Shown here one piece after another: positions 6,233 through 45,399 of a DNA stretch of 64,000 bases. Where the stretch lies: contig NZ_JANX01000002.1 in assembly GCF_000767795.1 (NCBI RefSeq), forward strand, positions 1 through 64,000, in the 5' to 3' direction. The stretch's first letter is position 1. Each line of letters starts with the position of its first letter. Origin of the DNA: Inquilinus limosus MP06 (GTDB lineage Bacteria > Pseudomonadota > Alphaproteobacteria > DSM-16000 > Inquilinaceae). The translations under genes were made by a program, and so were the position numbers. Below the pieces are notes generated by a model. That model was not told the origin of the DNA, did no database searches, and saw only the letters and a list, made by a program, of their open reading frames with translations.

Positions 6233-6970
6233 ATGGGGATGGACATCCTAGACCCGGAGATGAGAGGCGAGACTCCTACCCAGCCGAACTACAGCCGGCT
6301 GCGCGAGTTGATCCGCGCCGACATCATCGAGGGACGTCTGGCCTCGGGATCCAGGCTCAAGATCGCCGAGATCGCCAAGCGCTATGAGAGCAGCGCCATC
6401 CCGGTTCGCGAGGCGCTGCATCAGCTGCAGGGCGAGGGGATCGTCACCTTCGAGCCGAACCGGGGTGCCCGGGTGCGAGAGATCGATGACGCCTTCCTCC
6501 GCAACATCCACGAGGTGCGAGGCGTCCTGGAGCCCTATCTCATACGCTGGTTCGTCCGGCACCGAAGCGAGACGGAGCTCGAGGAACTCATCGCCGCACA
6601 GCGCGAGTACGATCGGGGCGCCGAGACGGAGGGGCCCGAGCAATGGCGCGGCTACAATCAGCGCTACCATGCCATCTGCTACGAGGGTCACTACAACCAC
6701 GAGGCCCTGGTCGTTGCCAAGCGACACAACGACCTGCTGCAGGCCTTGGCGATCAGGTTTCCGATGTCCCGCTCACGAGTCCTGCAGGTCTGCCGGGAAC
6801 ATTGGCAGATCATCGAATGCGTCCGCGCCCAGGATGAAGAGGCGGCCGCTGCTATCGTGGCCGAGCACGTCCGTCGGGCCGGTCAGGACCTGATCGAGCG
6901 GATGTTGGCCGCCAACCACAGCGGACTGCGCCGCGGCCACCGGCCCCGGACGGTAACGAAAGGTCCCTGA
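6233..6970 (+). CDS. GntR family transcriptional regulator (FadR/FCD subfamily)
   Basis: A 245-residue repressor-type regulator. The N-terminal winged helix-turn-helix contains LREL..DIIEGRLASGSRLKIAEIAKRY and IPVREALHQLQGEG, typical of GntR. The all-helical C-terminal part, with HEVRGVLEPYLIRW and later histidines (YNQRYHAICYEGHYN, REHWQIIECV), matches the metal-binding FCD effector domain. FCD regulators usually sense sugar acids or other carboxylates, which fits the dehydratase and transporter. It is divergent from the binding-protein gene, with the AT palindrome at 5982-5994 between them. The ribosome site is poor; a second in-frame ATG lies two codons downstream. Confidence 0.9.
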   Translation: MGMDILDPEMRGETPTQPNYSRLRELIRADIIEGRLASGSRLKIAEIAKRYESSAIPVREALHQLQGEGIVTFEPNRGARVREIDDAFLRNIHEVRGVLEPYLIRWFVRHRSETELEELIAAQREYDRGAETEGPEQWRGYNQRYHAICYEGHYNHEALVVAKRHNDLLQALAIRFPMSRSRVLQVCREHWQIIECVRAQDEEAAAAIVAEHVRRAGQDLIERMLAANHSGLRRGHRPRTVTKGP

Positions 6971-7124
6971 GCGAGCCCGGAATCATTGCGTAGGGCCGTC
7001 GAGCCCCCGGGGCGTCTGATCCCGGGCATTCATGGCGCGGCATGGTCGCCGCGCGGCTGCTTTCCCGAGCATCGACGAAGGCCGCCTGCATATCCTGTCG
7101 GTCCACACGGCCCCGCTCCCGACG

Positions 7125-7856
7125 TCAATCACTCGTGTCCTGGACTCGCCCGCCCGAAGCCCCGCCCGGTCCCCAGGCGGGGTTCCGGCCCTCCAGCTCC
7201 ATGCGCTCGAGAAGGTCGAGCTTCGCCGACTGGCAATGCTCCTGGGCGACAGCGACGGCGAGATCCTTGTCACGCGCCTTGATGGCGGCGACCAGCCGGC
7301 GGTGCTGATCGATGATCGCCGCGACCCGGTTCTCCCCGAAGCCATAGCGGTTCCGGATGCTGATGACGAGCTCCCACCCGCGCTCATGGATCTCCGCAGC
7401 TTCCGGATTGTCGGCGATCTTGGCGATGAAACGGTGCAGCCGGAGATTCGCCTCGACCATCCGATCGGCGTTCTTCGTTTCCGCCGCCTGCTCATAGGCG
7501 GCCGCAAGCGATTCCAGATGAGCGCTCTGCTCATCGGTCACGTTCTCGGTGGCCCGTCGGACGAGGAGGGTTTCGATCGCCTCCCGCGTGTCATGCATGT
7601 CCGCCACGAATTTCGGGCTCACGCCGCGCAGGATGGCACCCTTGTGTGACTCGATCACGACGAGGCGGTCGCCTTCCAACTGCCGGAGCGCCTCCCGCAC
7701 CGGGATGTGGCTGACGCCATAGCGGGTGCTGAGATCGGCGACCCGCAGCCGGGTGCCGGGGGCCAGCACCCCCCGCAGGATGTCCTGGCGGATCGCGCGT
7801 TCCACCCGCGCCGCCATTGTGCTGGCGATATCGCCCGCCGCCACGTCTTCCATCAT
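7125..7856 (-). CDS. GntR family transcriptional regulator (FCD subfamily), second copy
   Basis: A 243-residue GntR regulator paralogous to the one at 6233 and divergent from the Dpp/Opp-type transporter operon. The winged-helix DNA-binding domain spans roughly residues 14-80 (RQDILRGVLAPGTRLRVADL, SHIPVREALRQLEGDRL). It is followed by an FCD domain with the paired acidic/His pattern (DMHDTREAIETLL, NLRLHRFIAKIADNPE). About 100 bases separate its start from the AT-rich inverted repeat at 7953-7981, so it probably controls both itself and the 8056 operon. Two ATG codons lie at the start with GAAGGTGGG upstream. Confidence 0.9.
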   Translation of the reverse strand: MMEDVAAGDIASTMAARVERAIRQDILRGVLAPGTRLRVADLSTRYGVSHIPVREALRQLEGDRLVVIESHKGAILRGVSPKFVADMHDTREAIETLLVRRATENVTDEQSAHLESLAAAYEQAAETKNADRMVEANLRLHRFIAKIADNPEAAEIHERGWELVISIRNRYGFGENRVAAIIDQHRRLVAAIKARDKDLAVAVAQEHCQSAKLDLLERMELEGRNPAWGPGGASGGRVQDTSD

Positions 7857-33053: not shown

Positions 33054-35957
33054 TCAGATTCCTCTGCATCGGCTGGGCATCTGCTCGGGCCAGATGCGTG
33101 TGTTGCCCGCCCCGTACAGCACCCGGACGCCGCACCGCATGGTGACGCGCGCCAGGGGCCGGCCGGTCGTGTCGATCACCATCGAGGCGTCGGCGGTCGA
33201 GGCCACGGCGCGATCGTCCGCGAATGACGAGACCGCGCCGTAGACAGGTGGGATGGCGAAGCGGCCATCCGCCTCGACATAGCCGTAATGCTCCCCGTCG
33301 GCGGCGGCATAGGCCAACCCGCCCGCCGGCAGCCCGAGATCGGCGAAGGCCAGCCCCTCGGCCGGCCGGCCCTGCTCGTCGATCCAGGTTGCCTGACCGT
33401 CCTCGCGAATCAGAACGGCCCGCCGGTCCCGGAACAGTCCCGCCGAGCCTGGCACCGACAGGGTCGGCCGGCCCCTGGCGTCGGCATAGCGCGTCACCGG
33501 CTTGCCATCGGCCGAATCGCGCGCGAGCAGCCATGGCGAGGCCGGAGGCCAGCTCCACTGGCCGGCCGGCAACTCGGCAACCGGCCTGCCTGTCCTGTCG
33601 ATCAGCCGGTTCGTCCTACCCGTCCGTTGCAGCGCGAGTCCCGACATGGCATCGAAGGTCGAGCCGGACGCGGTTGCCGGAGGGATGCTCCAAATCCCCG
33701 CGGCATCGACGTAGCCCTGCTGCGGCGGCTTGACGATCTCCCAACTCCGGCCGATCTGCGAGATCTCGGCACGGGGGTCGTCGTTGACCGGCGTACCGTC
33801 GGGCAGCAGCAGCCAGTTCTCCCGGTCGTCGCCGTAGCCGACCGAGGCCAGGATCTTCCCGTCCTCGGCGGCGGTGACGTCCAGCCCCCGCCGGAACGGC
33901 ACGATCTCGCGGCCGGACGAGTCGACCACCTCGGCCGGGGTCTCGTCGTCATCCGCGCCCGCCGTCGCCGACGCCTCGACACGCCAGAGATGGTCGTTGA
34001 GCCGGTGCACCGCGCCGAAGCGGGCCGGCAGCGCCCAGCGGCCCTGGCCGTCGATGACGCCGACCTGACCGGGGCCGAGGGAAGCGACAGCCAGGCCATC
34101 GGCGAAATCGCCGATGGCCCGGAACCGCGGCGGCACGACGACCCGGCGGGAGGCGATGTCGTAAAGCCCCCATGGCGCGTCCTCGGCGGCGGTCTCGTGG
34201 AAGCGCACGACGCCCGGCCCGGCGACCTCCGCCTCGAACACGTCCGGCAGGGGCGAGAGCTTGCCGCGGCGATCGAGCAGCCGCGACACGCCGTCCCGGT
34301 AGGCCAGCGCATAGCCGAACCGGAAGGGGCCGATGTGATCCTGGTCCGGGGCGAGCAGCGGCTTGCCGGCCTGGTCGAGCAGGCCGGTCCCTTCGGCCGT
34401 CTCGACGGCGAAGCGCAGCCCATCGGCCGGCACATCCCGGGTCTCGTCGTCGAGCGGCACGACCTTCTGCCAATGCGGCTTGAGCACGAGGTCGCCGTTC
34501 GAGAGCAGCAGCCCGGCGCCCTCGGCGCATTGGCAGTGGTTCTGCCCGATCACGGCGATCGCGGTCGGCGGAACGCTGCGGCCGGGCGAGTTGCGAAGGG
34601 GCTCGACCGCGTAGTTCGCGAGCGTTGCCGCCGCCTTATCGCCGAGGACGGCCCGACCTTCGGGGTCGATGATCGCGACGGGCGTGCCGTAGTCGCCCCA
34701 CAGCCACAGCCGGCCCTGGACGGCTTCGGCCTTCGCGACACGGGCCAGCCAGGCCGGAGGGTGCGCCCCGCCGATCCACTGGCCCCGCGGGGCCAGGATA
34801 CCGGCGATCCGGTCCTCGCCGCCGTCGCCCGGCTCCGGCGGCGCCGCCCGGAAGAAGAGGAAGCCGGTATCGTCGTAGGAGGATACCGGCTCCAGCCCTT
34901 TCGGCACGACGACCGGCTTGGCCAGCCCCGGCACGTAGACCTCCAGCCCGGCCGCCGTCGTCAGCAGCAGATAGCTTCCCTCTTGCCTGAGATCGTCGGC
35001 AGCGGACCGGTCCAGCTTGCGCAGCACCTCCCCGGCGGCGCCCAGCAGGTCGAAGCCGGCGTCCTCCTGGCCGTCGGCGGCCAGCCAGAAGCCGGGGCCG
35101 AGGGGCTGGACGCGCCAATAGTCCCGCGCGATGACCGATCCATCGGGGCGGATCAGCACGGTGCCGTTGGCCACGCCGAGCCGGCCCGCCGCCATCGGAG
35201 CGTCGATCTCGTCATATTCCGGCTCCAGACGCCACCGTCCGGCGCCATCCGCCAGCCCGTAGCGGCCGTCTGCGGCGGCGGCGATGAACAGGTCCTCGCC
35301 GAAGCTCTGCACCGGCTTGACACCGTCGACGGCATAGCGGCGCTCGCCGGTCGGCAGCAGATAGGCCGGCTTGTACTGGATCTGGACCAGACCGGGATCG
35401 CCGTCCTGGAGGAAGATCCGGGCGACGTCGTCGCCGAAGGCCGGACCGACCGGCTTGCCGGACCGATCGATCAGCCGGAAGCGGCCGTCCTGCATCACGG
35501 CCGCGAGCCCCAGCGTGGTGAAGGGGCCGGCCCAGTCGAAGCGAGGCGGCAGGGCCCATTGGCCCTGCGGGTCGAGATAGCCCCACTTGCCGCCGTCGCG
35601 GGCAGCGGCGCGGCCGCCATGGAAATCGTCGACGCTCTCGAAGCGCGGCGGGATGGCCAGGCGACCGTCCCGGTCCAGGAAGCCCCAGCGATGCGCGCCC
35701 AGGGCCGGATCCGCGGCGACGTCGTCGATGTCCTGTCCGGGCGGCGGCAGGAGGACCGCCGCCCGCCCCTCCCGCAGGTCGTGGATGCAGAGATTGGCGG
35801 CCAGGGGGCGGTCGGCGTCGAGGGACATCTTCGTCGCCAGGTCGTAGTAGGGCGCCTCGAAGCAGGGCGCCTCCTGCGCCGCGGCGGCGGCCGTCGCCGC
35901 GGCCAGGGCGGCCGCGCAGAGAATGATGGCGGCCGGGAGGCGGCGAAAGTGGATCAT
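33054..35957 (-). CDS. Giant secreted WG-repeat protein
   Basis: A 967-residue protein beginning in an ATGA overlap with the upstream WG-repeat gene. Signal peptide LPAAIILCAAALAAATAAAA. The body is a long array of WG (KWG) repeats of about 30-45 residues, e.g. WGFLDRDGRLAIPPRFESVD, KWGYLDPQGQWALPPRFDWA and GYVEADGRFAIPPVYGAVSS, interspersed with more degenerate copies. The final segment has two cysteines. WG repeats are thought to form beta-propeller or solenoid binding surfaces; roles are mostly unknown. It is probably periplasmic or surface-exposed and made together with its neighbour. Confidence 0.82.
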   Translation of the reverse strand: MIHFRRLPAAIILCAAALAAATAAAAAQEAPCFEAPYYDLATKMSLDADRPLAANLCIHDLREGRAAVLLPPPGQDIDDVAADPALGAHRWGFLDRDGRLAIPPRFESVDDFHGGRAAARDGGKWGYLDPQGQWALPPRFDWAGPFTTLGLAAVMQDGRFRLIDRSGKPVGPAFGDDVARIFLQDGDPGLVQIQYKPAYLLPTGERRYAVDGVKPVQSFGEDLFIAAAADGRYGLADGAGRWRLEPEYDEIDAPMAAGRLGVANGTVLIRPDGSVIARDYWRVQPLGPGFWLAADGQEDAGFDLLGAAGEVLRKLDRSAADDLRQEGSYLLLTTAAGLEVYVPGLAKPVVVPKGLEPVSSYDDTGFLFFRAAPPEPGDGGEDRIAGILAPRGQWIGGAHPPAWLARVAKAEAVQGRLWLWGDYGTPVAIIDPEGRAVLGDKAAATLANYAVEPLRNSPGRSVPPTAIAVIGQNHCQCAEGAGLLLSNGDLVLKPHWQKVVPLDDETRDVPADGLRFAVETAEGTGLLDQAGKPLLAPDQDHIGPFRFGYALAYRDGVSRLLDRRGKLSPLPDVFEAEVAGPGVVRFHETAAEDAPWGLYDIASRRVVVPPRFRAIGDFADGLAVASLGPGQVGVIDGQGRWALPARFGAVHRLNDHLWRVEASATAGADDDETPAEVVDSSGREIVPFRRGLDVTAAEDGKILASVGYGDDRENWLLLPDGTPVNDDPRAEISQIGRSWEIVKPPQQGYVDAAGIWSIPPATASGSTFDAMSGLALQRTGRTNRLIDRTGRPVAELPAGQWSWPPASPWLLARDSADGKPVTRYADARGRPTLSVPGSAGLFRDRRAVLIREDGQATWIDEQGRPAEGLAFADLGLPAGGLAYAAADGEHYGYVEADGRFAIPPVYGAVSSFADDRAVASTADASMVIDTTGRPLARVTMRCGVRVLYGAGNTRIWPEQMPSRCRGI

Positions 35958-38695
35958 CGCGTGGGGCATGACCGCTTCTGCTTGGGCCAGATCTGGGCGC
36001 TCTTGCCGTCGGCCACCACCGGACGGCCGCAATGCAGCAGGAACCGTGCGACCACGCGGCCCGAGGCGTCGATGAACTGTGGCACGCCCTTCTCGGAGAC
36101 GAGGGCGCGGCCGTCGCTGAAACTGGTCGCCCATTCGTACCGGGGACGGATGACGAAGCGGCCGGTCCGGTCGATATAGCCGTAGGCCTGGCCCGACCGG
36201 CTGGACTGCATGGCGAAGGCGCGGTCGCCTTCCATCGGGCCCAGCCTGTCGAAATAGGCGCCGATCACGCGTTTGCCGCCGGCGTCGAGGAACCCGTATT
36301 TCTCCTCCGGGCTCTTGAACGGCACCAGCCCGCCGCGGGCATCGCTCGTCTCCACGGCGTATCGCCCCGGCAGGCGCAGGATCTCGGCGCCGTCGAGCGC
36401 CATCAGCACGGTTTCGTCCTTGTCCTCGTCGTTGCGGACCAGTCGCCCCATGCCGGCCAAGGGCGACGCGTCGGCCAGTCCCGCCGGGCCGGCCTTGCCG
36501 TCCTGGTCCAGCAGGACGCTGCCGCCATCGACGGAGGCGCTGGCGAGACCCTCGGGCTGCACGAAATCGATGGCGCTGACATAGCGCGGCGGGACGCGCC
36601 ATTCGCCCCGGCTGTCGATCGCGCCGTAGCGGTCGTCGAAGCGGAGGACGATCCAATCCCCCGCCATCTCCGTCCGGTCGGGCGCGGCATCGCTCCGCAG
36701 CAGGACCTTGCCGGCCCCGTCGACCAGCGCGGCCCCGCCCGACGCCGGCTTGATCAGGAAGCGGTTCGCCGCCAGGCGCTCCGGCTTGTCGCGCAGATCC
36801 TCGCCGATCTCCCCGCCCGCGGCGACCGAGGCCAGGCGGTACACGCTCTCGGGCCCCCCTCCCGGCCTCAGCGGCTTGCTGCTCTGGGCCACGTAGACGC
36901 CGTCGTCCAGCCGTTCCGGCTCGCCGTAGCCGGCGATGCGGGGCGGGATCACCCACCGGCCCTGCCGGTCGAGCACGCCCCAGGCCTCCGCCTGCCGCGC
37001 CAGGGCGTAGCCGCCATCGAAAGGCTTGATCTCTTCCAGCGTCGGCTCGACCAGCACCTTCCCGGCCTCGATGTCCCACAGGCCCCAGCCCACCGAACCG
37101 CCCTCGGCCCGCCGCGAATAGAGGAGGCAGCCCGACGAGATGTCCTGCGCCTCCTCGATCACGCTGCGCGGCACGTCCCGCCGCCGGCCGTGTCCGTCGA
37201 TCAGGACCGGGCGGACGGCCTCGCCGCCCTGGTCCCTGGCCACGGCGTATCCGCCGCCGAAGCCGCTGAGCCGCTCCAGTGTCGGCGGGACCACCCAGCC
37301 GCCGTCGCCGTCGATCGCGCCATAGGACCCCTTGACCGTCTGGACCCGGAGAAGCAGGTCGCCCCGGCCGCCTGGTCCGATGTCATCCCAGTCGGGGTTG
37401 GTGACGATCCTGCCCTTGGCCGTCAGGATTCCTCCGGGCGCGCGGTAGTCCTTCGGCAGCAGCGTCGCAAACGGCAGCGGCAGGGCGTCGGCCGCACCCG
37501 CCGCGTCGCCATCGGAGACGGGATAGGCGCTATAGCCGTTCAGCGCCTTGACCGTCGCGTCGTCGAGCAGCGGCCGGCCGTCGCGGTCCAGGATCTGCAC
37601 CAGGGTGGGCCCGCCGTCGGACGCATCGGACGGCTCGCTTATCCAGAGCACGTCGCCATGCGCCTCGATCTCGGGATGATCGGCCGGGACGGCCCTGATC
37701 TCCGCCTTCGCCCCGATCAGCAGCACGGCGTCGTCGGCCGCCAGCGCGCTCCAGCGGCCGAACGACACCAGGCTCGGATACTGCCCGAGGTCACGGACGA
37801 CCGCCGCCTTGTCGTCGAGGATCTGCTGGGTGCCGTCCTTCGTCGTCGCCAGCCACGTGCCGGGCATCAGCAGTTCCACCGAGCGATAGCCGGTCCCGGA
37901 CAGCGGCTTGCCGGCAGCATCGACGAACCACCAGCCATCGTCGTGGTAGATCGCGACCGTGCCGCCGTCGGACCGCGGGGCCATTGTGCTGCCGAGAACC
38001 TCCGGGGCGATCGCCCACCGGCCGGACTCGTCCAGATACCCCCAGCGCCCGCCGTATTTCGTCTCGCGCCGCTGGGCCGGGACCAGCCCGCCCTGGGGCA
38101 ACCCTACATCCATCACGTCCTCCGGCAGGTCCCGGGCCAGGCCCGTCGCGGCGTTCCACAGGAGCGGCGCGACGGGTACCAGGATGCTGGCCAGCGGCTG
38201 CCCGGGCTCGAAGCCGTAGCGGCCCAGGCGCCAGCCCGGGGGCAGGGTCCTGACCGTCCGGCCCTGGCGGTCGATCAGCAGATGCCGGCCGTCGGATTCG
38301 ACGATCGCGGTGCCGTCGCCGTTGAAGGACGTCGCCCCCTGGAACCTCGGCTCGATCACCCAGGCACCCTTCGGGTCGATATAGCCCCAGAGCCCCTTCA
38401 CCTGCACCGCCGCCAGACCGTTGGAGAACCCCTCGGCGTCGTCGAAGGCCGGCTCGACGACCATCCGGCCCGAGGCGTCGAGATAGCCCCATCGGGGCGG
38501 GCCGTCCTCCCGCTCCGGCCCGATCTGCACCGCGGCCAGCCCTTCGCTGTAGGCCCAGTTACAGGCCGACCTGCCGAGGGCGTCGGTGCAGTCGTACCCT
38601 GGCCCGGCGGAGCGCGCCGGGGCGGGGCCAATCACAAGCAGGATGGCGGCCAGCGCCACGGCCGCGCCGTCCCGGCTCCTCCGTCCAGGGGTCAT
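35954..38695 (-). CDS. Giant secreted WG-repeat protein, first of a tandem pair
   Basis: A 913-residue protein; the start at 38695 has AGAGGA upstream and leaves a normal signal peptide (AVALAAILLVIGPAPARSAG). Early repeats are canonical: RWGYLDASGRMVVEPAFDDA, LWGYIDPKGAWVIEPRFQGA and RWGYLDESGRWAIAPEVLGS. Later repeats include WGVLDRQGRWVIPPRIAGYG and YGYIDRTGRFVIRPRYEWAT. It ends with a Cys-containing LLHCGRPVVADGKSAQIWPK segment closely matching the end of the downstream paralogue, so the pair arose by duplication. First gene of the run reaching to 31704. Confidence 0.83.
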   Translation of the reverse strand: MTPGRRSRDGAAVALAAILLVIGPAPARSAGPGYDCTDALGRSACNWAYSEGLAAVQIGPEREDGPPRWGYLDASGRMVVEPAFDDAEGFSNGLAAVQVKGLWGYIDPKGAWVIEPRFQGATSFNGDGTAIVESDGRHLLIDRQGRTVRTLPPGWRLGRYGFEPGQPLASILVPVAPLLWNAATGLARDLPEDVMDVGLPQGGLVPAQRRETKYGGRWGYLDESGRWAIAPEVLGSTMAPRSDGGTVAIYHDDGWWFVDAAGKPLSGTGYRSVELLMPGTWLATTKDGTQQILDDKAAVVRDLGQYPSLVSFGRWSALAADDAVLLIGAKAEIRAVPADHPEIEAHGDVLWISEPSDASDGGPTLVQILDRDGRPLLDDATVKALNGYSAYPVSDGDAAGAADALPLPFATLLPKDYRAPGGILTAKGRIVTNPDWDDIGPGGRGDLLLRVQTVKGSYGAIDGDGGWVVPPTLERLSGFGGGYAVARDQGGEAVRPVLIDGHGRRRDVPRSVIEEAQDISSGCLLYSRRAEGGSVGWGLWDIEAGKVLVEPTLEEIKPFDGGYALARQAEAWGVLDRQGRWVIPPRIAGYGEPERLDDGVYVAQSSKPLRPGGGPESVYRLASVAAGGEIGEDLRDKPERLAANRFLIKPASGGAALVDGAGKVLLRSDAAPDRTEMAGDWIVLRFDDRYGAIDSRGEWRVPPRYVSAIDFVQPEGLASASVDGGSVLLDQDGKAGPAGLADASPLAGMGRLVRNDEDKDETVLMALDGAEILRLPGRYAVETSDARGGLVPFKSPEEKYGFLDAGGKRVIGAYFDRLGPMEGDRAFAMQSSRSGQAYGYIDRTGRFVIRPRYEWATSFSDGRALVSEKGVPQFIDASGRVVARFLLHCGRPVVADGKSAQIWPKQKRSCPTR

Positions 38696-38871
38696 CCGTC
38701 CTCTTCCCGATGTCAACAGGACCCGCGCCGGGGCGGGCACCCGCGCCAGCCCACCAGATCTAGCCCAACAGGCACAGGCCCCAGGAAGGAAAAGGTGCCT
38801 GTCCATCCCATTTCGGGCACAGGCCGTCCCAGACCCTTCCCGCCCGCGCCTCCGGGCGCTATGGCAGCGGC

Positions 38872-39651: not shown

Positions 39652-39738
39652 CCTCCGGAGACGACTGCCATGCGCGCGTCGCCTTTCTAATTATTCTCAT
39701 ATTGAGATTAAATGAGATCACCGGTTCCGGAGGATCGC

Positions 39739-40617
39739 ATGCGCGACGTCACCGTCCTGACCGCCGAAGACATCCTTGGCATCGCCGAGGACACCCCGGG
39801 GCGGCTGTTCACCGGCGACCCGGATGCTGCGAGGCGGGAGTATCACGCCCTCGCCATACGCTGGCATCCGGACCGTTGCGGGGAGATCGAGGCGGGCCGC
39901 GTGTTCCGGCATGTCGCCGCCCTCTATCGCGCGGCCGGTCGCAGGCTGCGCGACCGCGCCTGGCGGACGCCTGGCGTCGTCGAGTTCGAGGACGAGGAAG
40001 GCCGGCGCTTCCGGCTGCGTTTCCTCCGGCAGAAGGGCTTCGAGCTGGGCGAGATGTACATCGGCCGCCGGACCATCGCCTTCGCGGTCGCGCATCAGCA
40101 CCGGGATCTCTTCGACAACGCCCTCGGGGCGATCGGCTCCTTCACCTTCGGCTCGGACCGGATGCGCGACGAGATCGCGCGCTGCCAGCCGGAGACCGTC
40201 CGGCACCTGCGGACGGCGGACCGCCTGGTCCTGGTGGTCCGGAATCCTCCCGACATGGTCCTGCTCGAGGATCTCGTCGCCCATCTCGGCGGCACGATCG
40301 ACCCCAGGCACGCGGCCTGGATCGTCAGCTCGCTGGAAAACCTCGCCTGCTATCTCGGTTACGCCGGCATCGTCCACAACGCGATCGGCCCCGCGACCTG
40401 CTTCGTCTCGTCGGCGGCCCATGTCTGTGCCCTCCTCGGCGGCTGGTGGTACGCCGCGCGGGTCGGACGGCCGCTCGTGGCAGTCCCCGCGCGCACGATC
40501 GACCAGGGACCGGCCGACCTCGCCCGGACCGGGATCGGGGATCCGCGCACGGACCTCTACCTGATCCGGCCACCGGCCGCGAGATCCTGGACGATCCGGG
40601 CGGTGCCCGCCTGTTGA
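39739..40617 (+). CDS. J-domain protein with degenerate protein-kinase fold (module gene 1), frameshifted near its end
   Basis: Start at 39739 behind GGAGG. Residues 1-75 form a J-domain with the Hsp70-stimulating HPD at 43-45 (AIRWHPDRC). Residues about 85-290 resemble a protein kinase: a GEMYIGRRTIAFAV strand region, hinge-like VLLEDLVAHLGG, and a catalytic-loop equivalent YAGIVHNAIGPATCFV where HRD is replaced by H213-N-A. DFG is replaced by LLGGWW, so it is a predicted pseudokinase. The frame ends at 40617, but protein-like sequence continues in another frame to 40787. It could recruit DnaK to partner proteins; the vWA and PurA-like genes follow immediately. Confidence 0.72.
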   Translation: MRDVTVLTAEDILGIAEDTPGRLFTGDPDAARREYHALAIRWHPDRCGEIEAGRVFRHVAALYRAAGRRLRDRAWRTPGVVEFEDEEGRRFRLRFLRQKGFELGEMYIGRRTIAFAVAHQHRDLFDNALGAIGSFTFGSDRMRDEIARCQPETVRHLRTADRLVLVVRNPPDMVLLEDLVAHLGGTIDPRHAAWIVSSLENLACYLGYAGIVHNAIGPATCFVSSAAHVCALLGGWWYAARVGRPLVAVPARTIDQGPADLARTGIGDPRTDLYLIRPPAARSWTIRAVPAC

Positions 40618-40787
40618 GATCCCCCGAAGTCCCGAAGCCTTTCGCGGATTTCCTCGTCGATCCGCCGGCCGGGACGGCCGTCGCCGACTACGAGCGCTGG
40701 CAGTCCGCTTTGACGGCGGCCTTCGGCGCACGCCGCTTCGTCCCGCTCGCGATCGAGCCGGACGCGATCTATCCCGCAACGGAATGA
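40563..40787 (+). pseudogene. Out-of-frame C-terminal part of the J-domain/pseudokinase protein
   Basis: This frame reads DPATGREILDDPGGARLLRS then PEVPKPFADFLVDPPAGTAV and YERWQSALTAAFGARRFVPL, a plausible C-terminal tail of the preceding protein. Its stop (40785-40787) lies just before the vWA gene. The frame break is between about 40555 and 40575. With one base gained or lost the protein would be about 350 residues long. This may be a sequencing error or a recent mutation. Confidence 0.6.
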
Positions 40788-40801
40788 AAGGAGACATCAT
40801 C

Positions 40802-41708
40802 ATGGGTGCTGGCCGCTGGGACGGAGTGGGCATCCTTCTCATCCGCGACCGCTGGCAGGCCGACATCGGCCATCTTCAGCCGCAGCCGGATCGCCGACGA
40901 CCTCGACCCACGGCGGATCACCGTGCGCGAATCCCGCGACTCGCCGGACAACCCGAACTCCACCGCCATCATTGTCGGCCTTGATGTCACCGGCTCGATG
41001 GGCGTCATCGCCGACAACCTGGCCCGTACCGGGCTCGGCACGCTGGTCGGCGAGATCCTCGACCGCAAGCCGGTGCCGGATCCCCATATTGCTTTCATGG
41101 GCATCGGCGACGCCTGGTGCGACCGCTACCCGCTCCAGGTTACGCAGTTTGAGGCGGATATCCGCATCGCCGCCACGCTCAAGGACCTGTATCTGGAGAA
41201 GGGCGGCGGAGGGAACAGCTATAAATCCTACAACCTGCCCTGGTACTTCGCAGCCAGGCACACCTCGATCGACTGCTTCGAGAGGCGCGGCCGAAAGGGC
41301 TACCTGTTCACGGTCGGCGACGAGGAGGCCCCGCCGGTCCTGCTGGCGAGCCACATCCGCGAGGTCATCGGCGACGAAGCGGCCCGCGACATCTCCACCC
41401 CCGACCTCCTGGCAATGGCGTCGCGGACCTACAACGTCTTCCACTGCGTCATCGAGCAGGGCAGCTACGCCAGCGCCTGCCTCGACAAGGTGCTCGACAG
41501 CTGGCACGCCGTCCTCGGCCAGAGAGTGCTCCGCGTCGGCGACTACGACCGGCTGCCCGAGGTGATCGTCTCGGCGATCGAGGTCACCGAGGGCCGCGAC
41601 CACAGGGACGTCGCCAGGAGCTGGCCGGGCTCGACCACCCGTGTGGTCGGCCGGGCGATCGCCAACCTGCCGGCCGCCTCGCCGGGAACCGGCATCGTCC
41701 GGTTCTGA
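40802..41708 (+). CDS. vWA (von Willebrand factor A) domain protein (module gene 2), frame break near its start
   Basis: About 300 residues. The ATG at 40802 follows AAAGGAGA and encodes MGAGRWD. The body is in another frame, joining near 40820 as TEWASFSSATAG and continuing RIADDLDPRRITVRESRDSP. The metal-ion-dependent adhesion site DxxGS is intact as DVTGSM at about residue 61, with a later T/D pattern (GIGDAWCDRYP, FTVGDEEAPP). vWA proteins of this kind are intracellular scaffolds binding partners through Mg2+. It lies 14 bases after the J-domain gene and 50 bases before the PurA-like gene. Confidence 0.72.
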
Positions 41709-41715
41709 CCCCCAT

Positions 41716-41740
41716 GGCCGCCGCCGCTCCGGCGGCGGCC
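41716..41740. repeat. Strong hairpin between the vWA and PurA-like genes
   Basis: GGCCGCCGCCG (41716-41726) pairs perfectly with CGGCGGCGGCC (41730-41740) around a three-base loop. It starts seven bases after the vWA stop and ends 18 bases before the PurA-like start. There is no T-run. It could protect or attenuate the operon mRNA and set different expression of the third gene; this is inferred. Confidence 0.5.
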
Positions 41741-41758
41741 CCTTCCTCGGAAAGACCG

Positions 41759-42976
41759 ATGAAAGCCTATGCCGTGATCGGCGCGGGGTTCGGGGACGAG
41801 GGCAAGGGCCTCGTCACCGACCATCTCGTGGCCAGGCTCGGAGCCGACACCCTGGTCGTCCGCTTCAACGGCGGCGCCCAGGCCGGGCATACCGTCACCC
41901 TGCCGGACGGCCGCCGGCACGTGTTTAGCCATTTCGGGAGCGGCAGCCTGCTCGGCGCGCCGACATTCCTCAGCCGCTTCTTCATAGCCAACCCCACCCT
42001 CTTCGCCGCGGAGCGCCAGAGGCTCACGGCGCTCTCGATCGCGCCGGCGGTCCTCATCGACCCTCGATGCGTCGTCACCACGCCCTACGACATGGTCCTG
42101 AACCAAGCGATGGAGCGGCCGCGGTCGGGATCGCGCCACGGGAGCTGCGGCGTGGGGATCGGCGAGACGGTCGAGCGCAGCCTGCACCCCGGATTCCGGC
42201 TGACCGTCGCCGACCTGGCCGACGAGGCCCGGGTCCGGAACCGCCTGGAGGCCATCCGCCGGAACTGGGTCCCCGCGCGGCTCGCCACCCTGCGGCAGGT
42301 GATGCCGGCGGCGGACCTCGGCGCCGACCGCGAGGTCGCGGCCTTCCTGGCCTCCGACCTGGTGGTCGAGCGGACAATGGCGGATATCGCAGAGTTCCTG
42401 CGCCACGTCTCGGTCGCGGCGGAGCCGCCGGGCCTGTCCGGCCGGCCCCTGGTCCTGGAAGGCGCCCAGGGCCTGCTGCTGGACCAGGATCTCGGCTGGT
42501 TCCCGCATGTCACCCGGTCGCACACGGGACTGCGCAACGTGGCCGCCCTGGCCCGGGACTGGCGCCTCCGGTCCATCGAGCCGATCTATGTCAGCCGGGT
42601 CTATGCCACCCGCCACGGCGCCGGCCCCCTGCCCCACGAGACGGCCGGAATCCCGGGCCTCCGCTTCGAGGACCGGACCAACGTCCCGCACCCCTATCAG
42701 GGCGCGATCCGGCTTGCCCCCCTCGACCTTGACCTCGTTGCCGACGTCGTCCGCCGCGACCGCCTGCTGGCCTCGCTTCCGTCCGGCGTCGCGGTGACGC
42801 CCCGGCTCGTCGTCACCTGTGTCGACCAGCTCGACCGGCCGATCCCGCATGTGGACCGGGGCGAGATCGTCGAGGCCGGCCCGGAGACGGTGGCCCGCCG
42901 GCTGGCCGACCGGGTTGGGACCGGCCTCCTGGCGATCGGCGCCGGCCCGACCTGGGCCACGATGACCCTCGCCTGA
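41759..42976 (+). CDS. Divergent adenylosuccinate synthetase-like enzyme (module gene 3)
   Basis: A 405-residue PurA-family protein (housekeeping PurA is about 430). The GTP loop GFGDEGKG carries the catalytic Asp at 13, and AQAGHT supplies the catalytic His at 44, both as in PurA. LEGAQGLLLDQDLGWFPHVT and YATRHGAGPLP match the IMP/GTP-binding regions. The segment where PurA has the aspartate-binding T-T-G-R-x-R loop instead reads TNVPHPYQGAIR (about 307-318). The second substrate probably differs from aspartate. Start chosen at 41759 with GGAAAG upstream. It is unlikely to be the purine-pathway enzyme. Confidence 0.8.
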   Translation: MKAYAVIGAGFGDEGKGLVTDHLVARLGADTLVVRFNGGAQAGHTVTLPDGRRHVFSHFGSGSLLGAPTFLSRFFIANPTLFAAERQRLTALSIAPAVLIDPRCVVTTPYDMVLNQAMERPRSGSRHGSCGVGIGETVERSLHPGFRLTVADLADEARVRNRLEAIRRNWVPARLATLRQVMPAADLGADREVAAFLASDLVVERTMADIAEFLRHVSVAAEPPGLSGRPLVLEGAQGLLLDQDLGWFPHVTRSHTGLRNVAALARDWRLRSIEPIYVSRVYATRHGAGPLPHETAGIPGLRFEDRTNVPHPYQGAIRLAPLDLDLVADVVRRDRLLASLPSGVAVTPRLVVTCVDQLDRPIPHVDRGEIVEAGPETVARRLADRVGTGLLAIGAGPTWATMTLA

Positions 42977-43095: not shown

Positions 43096-44148
43096 ATGGA
43101 CGAGCCCTTCGAAGGTCTGACCTATCGGTTCACCACGAAGATCGCGAAGCCCCGGGAGCGGTTCGATGCGTGGCGATCCGACGTCGGCGCCCTGTTCGAC
43201 ATCTCCGATCTCGACGGCGAGGACGTGTCCTACGACTCGCAATTCGGGTTCACGCTGCTGGACCAGATGATGTTCGGCGGCCGCGACTGGCTTCGCCCCG
43301 CCTCCCCCGTCACCCATGCGATGAGCCGGGACCCGCGGAAGATCCGCACGGACGGGCTGGACCACTACTATCTCCAACTGCAGATCAGCGAAACCCTGCG
43401 CGGGCAGGCGGGGGACGCCTCCGTCCATGTCGGGCCGGGCGACTTGTGCCTGCTGGATCTGGCAGCGCCCTTCGCGCTCGAGGTCACCACCGGCAACACC
43501 ATCTGCATGGTGATCCCGCGCGACATGCTGCCGGCCGGCGTCGCCAGCCTGCACGGCCGATCCCTGCGGGGCGGGCTGGGAGGGCTGCTGGCCGACCATC
43601 TCCACTCGCTGCGGCGGCACCTGCCGGGTCTGACGCGGGCGGAGGCGCCCTATGCGATCCAGGCCACCAAGACCATGCTCCTGGCCTGCCTGATGCCCAC
43701 ATCGGACACCCTGGCGCAGGCCGGGAGCGAACTCGACGCCGCGCTTGTCGGCCGGATCAGGCGGTACATCGACGAGACCCTCATGTCCCCAGACCTCAGC
43801 CCGGACCGGATCTGCAGGGAGGTTGGGATCTCCCGGTCGAAGCTGTACCGTCTGTTCGAGCCGACCGGCGGCGTCATGCGGCTGATCCAGCGCAAACGCC
43901 TGCGCCGAGCCCGCCAGGCGCTGGCGAACCCGCTGGAACCGAGAGCCCGTATCGGAGATGTTGCTTGGCGCCACGGCTTCGCCAACGAGAAACATTTCAG
44001 CCGGCTCTTCAAGACGGAGTTCGGCCACTCGCCCAGCGAGATCCCGGCTCTCGACCAGGAGGCGGACGGCCCTTCCGCGGTGGAAGATCGGGGAACGGAC
44101 GAAGGGCATCGCAGCTTCGGCGACTGGCTGCAGGTCTTCATGTCATAA
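43096..44148 (+). CDS. AraC family transcriptional regulator
   Basis: A 350-residue regulator. The N-terminal 200 residues resemble the AraC-binding-like domain (cupin) found in regulators of oxygenases and stress genes (HYYLQLQISETLRGQAGDAS, VHVGPGDLCLLDL). The C-terminal double helix-turn-helix includes DLSPDRICREVGISRSKLYR and IGDVAWRHGFANEKHFSRLF then KTEFGHSPSEI. It follows the PurA-like gene by 119 bases on the same strand but has its own ribosome site. Its target is unknown. Confidence 0.9.
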   Translation: MDEPFEGLTYRFTTKIAKPRERFDAWRSDVGALFDISDLDGEDVSYDSQFGFTLLDQMMFGGRDWLRPASPVTHAMSRDPRKIRTDGLDHYYLQLQISETLRGQAGDASVHVGPGDLCLLDLAAPFALEVTTGNTICMVIPRDMLPAGVASLHGRSLRGGLGGLLADHLHSLRRHLPGLTRAEAPYAIQATKTMLLACLMPTSDTLAQAGSELDAALVGRIRRYIDETLMSPDLSPDRICREVGISRSKLYRLFEPTGGVMRLIQRKRLRRARQALANPLEPRARIGDVAWRHGFANEKHFSRLFKTEFGHSPSEIPALDQEADGPSAVEDRGTDEGHRSFGDWLQVFMS

Positions 44149-44162
44149 ATGCGGCATCGGGC

Positions 44163-44267
44163 ATGCTCCGGATGCGCCTCGTCCTTCTTCTGATCCTGGC
44201 CGCCTTGGGCACGGCCTCCGCGGCGCCCTCGGCTGCCCTCTCCTTCCATTGTGCCGGGCTGCGTTCG
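44163..44267 (+). pseudogene. Truncated secreted-protein gene, 5' end only
   Basis: A clear signal peptide, MRLVLLLILAALGTASAAPS, and about 13 further residues (LSFHCAG) run directly into transposase-derived sequence. The SFHCA start resembles the mature N-terminus of LprI-like proteins, but the fragment is too short to assign. It appears cut off by an insertion-sequence event. Confidence 0.4.
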
Positions 44268-44995
44268 GCGGCCGACAGTGTCCATGGTGTGGCCGCACTC
44301 GAGATGACGCTGCGCCGGGCCGGCAAGGGCTATGTGCTTGGCGTCAATGCCAACCATCGGTTCAGCCCTGGACTTTGGAGATCTCGGTTACCGGTGAGGC
44401 CAAGGACATTGCCGCGACGTTGTCCGCCGACCTTTGGCAACGCCTCTCCGCGGCCCCCGGAACCAGGGGAGAAAGGCTCTACGACTGGGCCTACTGCCCG
44501 CTGGCCGACCTCGATGCCGAGGAATACGACGCGCCGGCACCCGGGCTCTGGACCCGCGCCCTGTTGATCCATCGCAGCATCGACGGCGAACTCGCCTATT
44601 TCACCACTTGGTGCCCCAAGGACACGCCAGTCGAGACCCTGGTGCAGGTCGAAGGCACGCGCTGGCGCATCGAGGAAGGCTTCGAGACCACCAAGAACGA
44701 GTTCGGCCTCGGCCACAACGAAACCAGATCCTGGCATGGATGGCACCGGCATGTGTCCCTGGTCATGCTCGCCTACGTTCTCATGGCTGTCGTTCGATTC
44801 AAGGCGAACACCATGACGCCGAAAACACCGCCAGCGTCGCGGCAAAGCTCATCCGCTGGTCGATCCAGGAGATCCGACGCCTCACCCTCAGCTGGCTCAA
44901 CGCCGCATTCCGATCCCCATGTCCTCGCATGGTCTAGCTTCCGCCGTACCCACCAAGCCGCTGCCCGAGAGGCTCATCTCAAGCGATCCCTTCCC
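44268..44995 (+). mobile_element. Decayed IS701-type transposase, C-terminal part in several frames
   Basis: Three frames together give the C-terminal half of an IS701/DDE transposase: ADSVHGVAALEMTLRRAGKG and YVLGVNANH; then DIAATLSADLWQRLSA, ERLYDWAYCPL, ALLIHRSIDGELAYFTTWCP and RWRIEEGFETTKNEFGLGHN; then AAKLIRWSIQEIRRLTLS and LAWSSFRRTHQAAAREAHLK. At least three frame changes are needed. The N-terminal part and terminal repeats are not visible. This is an inactive relic. Confidence 0.7.
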
Positions 44996-45059
44996 CTCCT
45001 CTCCGGGCCCACCAGTCTCGCAACAAAGCCCCTGATCGCGGCGCTGGATCCCCGCCGGC

Positions 45060-45399
45060 GATGACGCACCGATGACGGCGACGCCCAGCGCCGCGCCGAT
45101 CTGGACGGTCGAGATGATGCCCCCCAGGCCAGCCCGGCATGGCGGGGGTCGACGCCGCCGATCACCGCCTTGATCACCGATGGCATCACGATCCCGAAGC
45201 CGATCCCGGCGCAGGCCAAGCCTGGCCCGCCGGCCCCGGGCAGGAGCCCCGCGACGGCCACGATCACCGCGCCGAACCCCAGCACCTGGAGCGCAAAGCC
45301 CAGGGTCAGCGTGCGGGGCCCGAAATGGCGCGTCACCTGCGACGACGCCAGAGAGACGGCGAAGAACCCGCCGGCGAAGGGCAGCGTGGGATATCCGGG
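45060..45399 (-). pseudogene. Fragment of an MFS transporter gene
   Basis: The minus strand reads LPFAGGFFAVSLASSQVTRH, FGPRTLTLGFALQVLGFGAV, LACAGIGFGIVMPSVIKAVI and GGVDPRHAGLA. After one frame change it continues GGIISTVQIGAALGVAVIGA. This matches transmembrane helices of a drug:proton antiporter-type MFS protein (the 14-span DHA2 group is likely). Both ends are missing; the fragment abuts the IS701 remnant. Confidence 0.55.

Follow-up and report, generated by a model that had tools for sequence, protein, structure and literature searches.

What a J-domain protein with a kinase-like fold, a von Willebrand factor A (vWA)-like protein and a member of the PurA family may do together is the question raised by a locus of Inquilinus limosus MP06, where their genes stand side by side on the plus strand between positions 39739 and 42976 of the 64,000-nucleotide stretch analysed here (contig NZ_JANX01000002.1, positions 1 to 64,000; the window below). 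J-domains recruit Hsp70, vWA proteins scaffold complexes, and PurA ligates aspartate to inosine monophosphate (IMP) in a GTP-dependent reaction; the original prediction combined these activities into a chaperone-assisted nucleotide-modifying complex, perhaps serving a stress or phage response. The features on which it was built, namely the HPD motif of the J-domain, HNA at the place of the kinase HRD, an intact DVTGSM in the vWA-like protein, the PurA family and the common strand, are all present. We find that the vWA-like and PurA-like genes are the constant core of a module conserved in phages and bacteria, to which the J-domain pseudokinase is accessory. We propose, tentatively and with somewhat less than even confidence, that this module is organised around a GTP-dependent PurA-like purine ligase using an acceptor other than aspartate, with the vWA-like protein as its partner, and that it is linked to an NrtR-like regulator and, indirectly, to the sensing of ADP-ribose or NAD.

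The genes do recur in distant genomes, as had been anticipated. Scanning for relatives of the vWA-like gene yielded at least 552 in genome contigs and 317 in viral contigs; the best 80 of each, together with eight phage or plasmid records, form a collection of 168 loci (L003-L170), all gathered through the vWA gene. A PurA-like gene is present in 163 of these (79/80 bacterial loci, 76/80 viral loci and 8/8 phage or plasmid records), always downstream of the vWA-like gene, on the same strand and, in 153 loci, at most 1 kb away; the two frames of some viral loci, L099 and L117 among them, overlap by one base. Three of the five loci without it (L034, L126 and L148) end less than 0.5 kb from the vWA gene; in the other two, L108 and L168, 2.0 and 3.3 kb of sequence remain. 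The J-pseudokinase gene, always upstream, is found in 97 of the 168 loci (54/80 bacterial, 39/80 viral, 4/8 others) and not in the other 71, part of which are cut short. It is this difference between 163 and 97 loci that makes the J-pseudokinase an accessory: the idea of a three-gene unit thus holds for the vWA/PurA-like pair and fails for the trio as a fixed set. Natural fusions were not seen: at E 1e-5, none of the open frames matched more than one of the three family profiles.

Other searches give the same association. When viral contigs were searched with the PurA-like protein, 72 of the 76 loci gained in this way had a vWA-like gene on the same strand; the count is not independent, as the vWA scan had already turned up many of these contigs. 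A phylum-level sample of 398 genomes contained the vWA gene in 5 of the 397 genomes besides that of the window; the PurA-like gene follows it in all five, an NrtR-like gene accompanies it in four and the J-pseudokinase in one, and three of the five appear to equal contigs of the bacterial locus set. The module is spread over several bacterial phyla, plasmids and large phages. By tblastn, the vWA-like protein matched 206 phage records, of which Mycobacterium phages account for 188, and 21 plasmid records, and the PurA-like protein matched 224 phage records, other PurA homologues among them; the J-pseudokinase had no match among phages, though gene 270 of phage I3 falls in the same PHROG family. 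The core is carried by Mycobacterium phage I3, Rhizobium phage TM30 and a Vibrio phage.

The PurA-like enzyme has the PurA fold but appears to have left PurA chemistry. The window protein scores 140.6 bits against the Pfam PurA model (cut-off 27), and its family profile aligns with E. coli PurA at E=3.1e-35 over 370 columns (hhalign). All 55 family members tested match NCBIfam PurA models; for the window protein, the only one whose scores are given, the matches reach 121.5 of the 402 and 105.3 of the 395.55 bits required by the two equivalogs, and 35 of 300 bits for the PurZ model NF038379. Residues were compared in an alignment of 161 PurA-like proteins, that of the window included, with E. 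coli PurA and the PurA of the same genome, fragments shorter than 300 residues being dropped; positions follow E. coli PurA. D13 is kept in 160 of the 161 (with one gap), H41 in 159, Q224 in 161, T239 in 160 and D333 in 152, and the window protein retains GDEGKG and the catalytic His. Other positions are changed: N38 is replaced by Q in 157, T129 by C or V in 155 (mostly C), V273 by H in 161 and T301 by Q in 160. The TGRxR loop that binds aspartate, present in E. coli PurA and in the PurA of this genome, occurs in 0/161. R303, which contacts free aspartate in PurA according to the available text of PMC8342488, is mostly T, S, A, K or N and is R in only 11/161. With the aspartate-binding loop replaced throughout the family, the ligation of aspartate to IMP that the original prediction cited for PurA is doubtful here. 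Nor is the gene the only purA of the genome: a canonical homologue on contig C643, 34% identical to the PurA-like protein over the match, carries TGRxR. Since the genes recur together and a separate purA is present, the two outcomes that had been named as counting against a system, genes that almost never co-occur and a PurA-like gene serving as sole purA, were both avoided.

A quick tree of the PurA-like proteins places the two housekeeping PurA rows on a branch of length 1.83, next to a pair formed by Rhodococcus and phage I3. Bacterial and viral rows are intermixed, with 13-14 changes of label, at least seven of them forced by starred branches; such mixing suggests repeated exchange of the gene between phages and bacteria, with the reservation that the labels of some contigs may be wrong. 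The window protein lies among bacterial rows, in a position without strong support. In one Paenibacillus member (L051:8983-11289), an intein-like insertion follows GGAQAGH within the active-site motif; its Intein_splicing match (E=4.5e-7) stays under the curated cut-off.

A vWA domain is defined by a metal ion-dependent adhesion site (MIDAS) of the form DxSxS or DxTxS together with a distal Asp. Both are found in the second protein: across the 168 aligned relatives, DxTGS is present at 98-99% and the Asp of the distal GD at 100%. No Pfam vWA model matched any of 48 members, that of the window included, at E 0.01, and the family profile found nothing among PDB sequences at E 10. The AlphaFold model is an alpha/beta fold (pLDDT 90.7, pTM 0.90), and in profile comparison E. 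coli YegL was matched locally (54% over 43 columns), YfbK (6%) and a Ro60-like protein (6%) weakly, and an unrelated PurA control at 0.2%. The assignment to vWA therefore draws on the MIDAS motif, the predicted fold and the short YegL match. The protein starts with Met-Gly in 163 of the 168 relatives, the other five being gapped there. On a viral contig, a TROVE/Ro60-like protein with a vWA domain of its own is encoded upstream of the module (L127:5437-6774). The vWA open frame of the Methylorubrum extorquens AM1 megaplasmid (L009:8025-8729) is short, at 234 amino acids, and possibly broken.

The accessory protein joins a J-domain to a kinase fold that has lost its catalytic motifs. In the window, its DnaJ Pfam match is below the gathering score and the kinase part matches phrog_3043 at E=9.1e-6. 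In the PDB, a profile of 54 relatives, made without the window copy, matched both DnaJ structures (best E=3.7e-7) and those of protein kinases (best E=2.2e-5); the Pfam DnaJ model recognised 43 of 54 family members at E 0.01, and an unbroken relative, L038, which is also below the gathering cut-off, was modelled by AlphaFold with a pLDDT of 94.9. The HPD motif is kept in 86/97 J-pseudokinases and is the one feature that makes the involvement of a chaperone plausible. HRD is found in 0/97, its place being taken by HNA (21), HNG (15) or WNC (14) among others, and DFG likewise in 0/97, with GGW in 82/97. Kinase catalysis is unlikely given the loss of both motifs, although less surely so in every member since Asp is retained at the third HRD position in 16/97. 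The locus L039 has a protein kinase with a full Pkinase match (E=8e-37) at the usual place of the J-pseudokinase (6415-7626). A Met/Gly-rich protein is encoded upstream of the vWA-like gene in 12 of the 168 loci, all of them phage or viral and without the J-pseudokinase (e.g. L159:7264-7971); it had no Pfam match (L159) and no PHROG match (L159 and L004).

In bacteria, the module usually has a regulator at its side. An NrtR-like gene adjoins it in 52 of the 80 bacterial loci, mostly in divergent orientation, and stands apart from it in one more; in a clustering of the neighbours it is the single family that recurs widely in bacteria. NrtR_WHD (PF21906) is over its cut-off in two of three such proteins tested, L029 and L006 (also Nudix), and L008 matches Nudix only. 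Of 56 such proteins, only 5 have an intact Nudix box, a scarcity in keeping with a ligand sensor. NrtR-like matches were also seen in 13 of the 76 viral loci found with the PurA-like protein. Inspected by eye and without a shuffle control, 42 shared intergenic regions contained recurring palindromes, of the TTGCAAAAT type in 12 and of other types elsewhere. A TTGCAAA-type operator pattern is present in six of eight genomes, with exact sites at the module only and three one-mismatch places elsewhere; as the pattern was taken from module loci, matches there were expected. Because exact sites occur at the module only, the regulator looks dedicated to it rather than a general regulator of NAD genes. 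Genes of NAD metabolism lie in the flanks of some of the 168 loci: pncB in 3, a pncA-like gene in 1, NAMPT in 10 and NADAR in 4, as raw counts. One example of each kind was checked by Pfam, the pncA-like one being confirmed only as an isochorismatase-family protein. We consider the NAD link suggestive. A nicotinate phosphoribosyltransferase gene (L074:10276-11598) and an isochorismatase-family, nicotinamidase-like gene (L064:9941-10684) each stand directly after a module.

A low-resolution mechanism may be suggested from these data. At the expense of GTP, the PurA-like enzyme would most likely activate a purine nucleotide at its 6-oxo group; the activated purine would be joined to an amine other than free aspartate, which the vWA-like partner may bind or present. 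The J-domain pseudokinase would connect these two proteins with Hsp70. Bacterial modules usually adjoin an NrtR-like regulator of their own, so ADP-ribose- or NAD-type nucleotides are probably the signal to which they respond. A bolder version, to which we give a low chance, is that the purine nucleotide is conjugated to a protein amine held at the vWA MIDAS site, perhaps the N-terminal glycine of the vWA-like protein itself, a candidate acceptor given its nearly invariant Met-Gly start.

The copy in the window is damaged, a point overlooked by the original prediction. The PurA-like gene is the only one of the three that is intact in this strain (Table 1). The J-pseudokinase gene has a frame break near 40569: its family profile matches the first part at E=6.5e-98 over model positions 2-271 of 341, the match in the genome spans 39739-40569, and the last ~70 residues lie in another frame, open to 40787. 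The natural start of the vWA-like gene is the ATG at 40802, which opens the conserved MGxGRW and is preceded by AAAGGAG; the body of the gene, with homology from ~40818-40821 on, is read in another frame. As the genome is a draft assembly of 1186 contigs, the two breaks may be sequencing errors; they may also reflect real decay. The vWA gene was absent from all 60 related genomes searched, five of them of the same genus, and a frame at 43958-45064, ~1.5 kb downstream of the module, matches the transposase domain DDE_Tnp_1 (31.3 bits, cut-off 23). This absence, the sporadic occurrence in the phylum sample and the transposase match fit a horizontal gain of the module by this strain.

Table 1. 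Features of the module and its upstream region in the window.
Feature	Position	Strand	Evidence and remarks
Imperfect palindrome TATTCTCATATTGAGATTA	39692..39710		upstream of the J-domain gene; possible operator, weak
J-domain and kinase-like gene, first open part	39739..40617	+	homology stops at ~40569; DnaJ E=0.0011; phrog_3043
J-domain and kinase-like gene, C-terminal part in another frame	40569..40787	+	family profile 272-340 of 341, E=1.2e-19
vWA-like (MIDAS) gene	40802..41708	+	phrog_2971 E=2.9e-46; family profile 9-303 of 303
PurA-like gene, intact	41759..42976	+	PF00709 E=8e-41; phrog_1211 E=1.1e-57; family profile 2-392 of 393

The palindrome upstream of the module is the only place in the genome that matches extended versions of its pattern, for which reversed control patterns gave 0 and then 3 matches per strand, so that chance is possible; the motif CTCANNNTGAG occurs twice in the window against 0.84 expected. 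The palindrome resembles the NadQ consensus given in the available text of PMC5343134. The pattern TATRCTCANNNTGAGYATA with three mismatches, with which a NadQ operator was sought, has this as its only place in the genome, but it is the one whose reversed control gave the 3 matches per strand, and the idea was dropped. Farther upstream, two overlapping minus-strand frames carrying WG repeats occupy 33054-38806.

Several observations count against our proposal or limit its reach. Substrate, product and contact between the proteins are proposals made from sequence, and the collected loci, chosen as the best 80 from at least 552 matches and from 317, are mutually related. AraR_C matches two of the three NrtR-like proteins tested, and such folds can take other ligands; NrtR-like matches occur in 9 of the 80 viral loci, in none of them adjacent to the module; and no NrtR-like gene was found in the window, nor any NrtR_WHD match in the genome. 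One alternative is that the enzyme is an ordinary extra PurA, or PurZ-like, ligating aspartate for purine supply or for 2-aminoadenine, and that its neighbours only stabilise it. It belongs to PF00709, it keeps the catalytic Asp, His, Gln and Thr, and PHROG and phage annotators label it adenylosuccinate synthetase; Arg306, at the end of the loop, is moreover kept in 158/161 and could replace the lost arginines, so some ability to bind an acid may be left. Yet the window protein falls far under the PurA and PurZ cut-offs, TGRxR is missing throughout, the catalytic Asp is kept as it is not in PurZ, and a housekeeping purA is at hand. Residue counts and score cut-offs rule out membership as a plain PurA or PurZ, and we regard an ordinary role for the enzyme as improbable. 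A copy that is a decaying recent acquisition, without function in this strain, is by contrast quite possible, if short of probable, and could hold alongside each of the other readings. It is supported by the two frame breaks, which affect different genes, by the absence from all 60 relatives, by the transposase fragment downstream and by the missing NrtR-like gene; the PurA-like gene, intact over its whole profile, and the chance of sequencing errors in a draft speak against it. With two genes broken and no NrtR-like gene found, the module copy of this strain may indeed be inactive.

Two further alternatives concern the biological role. The module could act directly in NAD or ADP-ribose metabolism, for example by remaking or altering dinucleotides, as a phage counter to NAD-depleting defences and as a repair route in bacteria. 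The NrtR-like gene beside most bacterial modules and the NAMPT, NADAR, pncB and pncA-like genes of the flanks would agree with this. Against it, and also against the NAD-type signal in our own proposal, the exact operator matches lie at the module only in the eight genomes and thus do not put it in an NAD regulon, only a minority of loci have NAD genes in their vicinity, and NadV occurs frequently among large phages according to PMC9503650; we judge a direct metabolic role unlikely. An anti-phage or stress defence system, the role suggested by the original prediction, would explain the sporadic spread (0/60 relatives, 5/397 genomes of the phylum sample, 21 plasmid records), and the combination of regulator and chaperone is reminiscent of predicted conflict systems (PMC9503650, section 3.8). 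The role is unsupported because phages themselves carry the core: cultured phages have it, and phage records match the vWA-like (206, of which 188 are Mycobacterium phages) and PurA-like (224, some being other PurA homologues) proteins. Nor did an effector emerge, the only PADLOC match of the three window proteins being PD-T4-6 at E=0.011, in the kinase part, and no defence gene being recognised by eye among the 15 neighbour clusters present in at least five loci. Defence is accordingly a very unlikely role. A purine ligase with a non-aspartate acceptor, working with a vWA-like partner, remains the proposal we favour.

Should this be correct, a PurA relative that keeps its catalytic residues and has replaced its aspartate loop implies a new purine product or conjugate, common to many phages and bacteria. 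Its constant partner comes from a family missed by the Pfam vWA models used here; a pseudokinase with a J-domain is often added and, in bacteria, mostly a Nudix-type regulator of the module's own. Nucleotide chemistry at the boundary between phage and host thereby becomes directly testable. If true, the conjugation of an amine held by the vWA-like protein would constitute a new kind of protein-nucleotide conjugation machine, to which a J-domain pseudokinase recruits Hsp70, in phages as well as in bacteria.

A full-text search of the literature for the gene set and its parts, with most subscription papers outside its reach, did not find the gene set described as one system. Its parts have been catalogued singly: phrog_3043, phrog_2971 (without an assigned function) and phrog_1211 are the same three protein families, genes 270, 271 and 273 of phage I3 represent the three, and the mycobacteriophage 'PurA-like adenylosuccinate synthetase' belongs to the same family as the enzyme studied here. 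The E. coli yegD-yegI-pphC-yegL genes, annotated as Hsp70, kinase, PP2C and vWA proteins, share the theme of chaperone, kinase fold and vWA, but they include an annotated kinase and phosphatase and no PurA-like gene; the similarity to YegL is local only, and the J-pseudokinase profile does not align to YegI (0.2%). ARG-centred systems, described with Nudix or WYL regulators and vWA chaperones (PMC9503650, section 3.8), are comparable in design: a nucleotide-related enzyme is accompanied by a Nudix-HTH regulator and, in some cases, also by a vWA protein. They differ in that the enzyme here is PurA-like and that no ARG, phosphatase or restriction endonuclease was recognised by eye among the recurring neighbours. 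PurA itself (PF00709, TIGR00184) has the fold and the catalytic residues in common with the family, whose profile aligns to it over 370 columns; the family departs from it in the TGRxR aspartate loop, in V273H and N38Q, in a T129 that is mostly C, and in the low equivalog scores of the window protein. A further parallel is PurZ/PurZ0 of Z-genome phages, likewise a phage-borne PurA relative with changed specificity. In PurZ, however, the catalytic Asp is replaced by Ser, with Ser/Gly there in four archaeal sequences, according to PMC12884076, whereas the PurA-like family keeps this Asp and has a vWA-like gene beside it.

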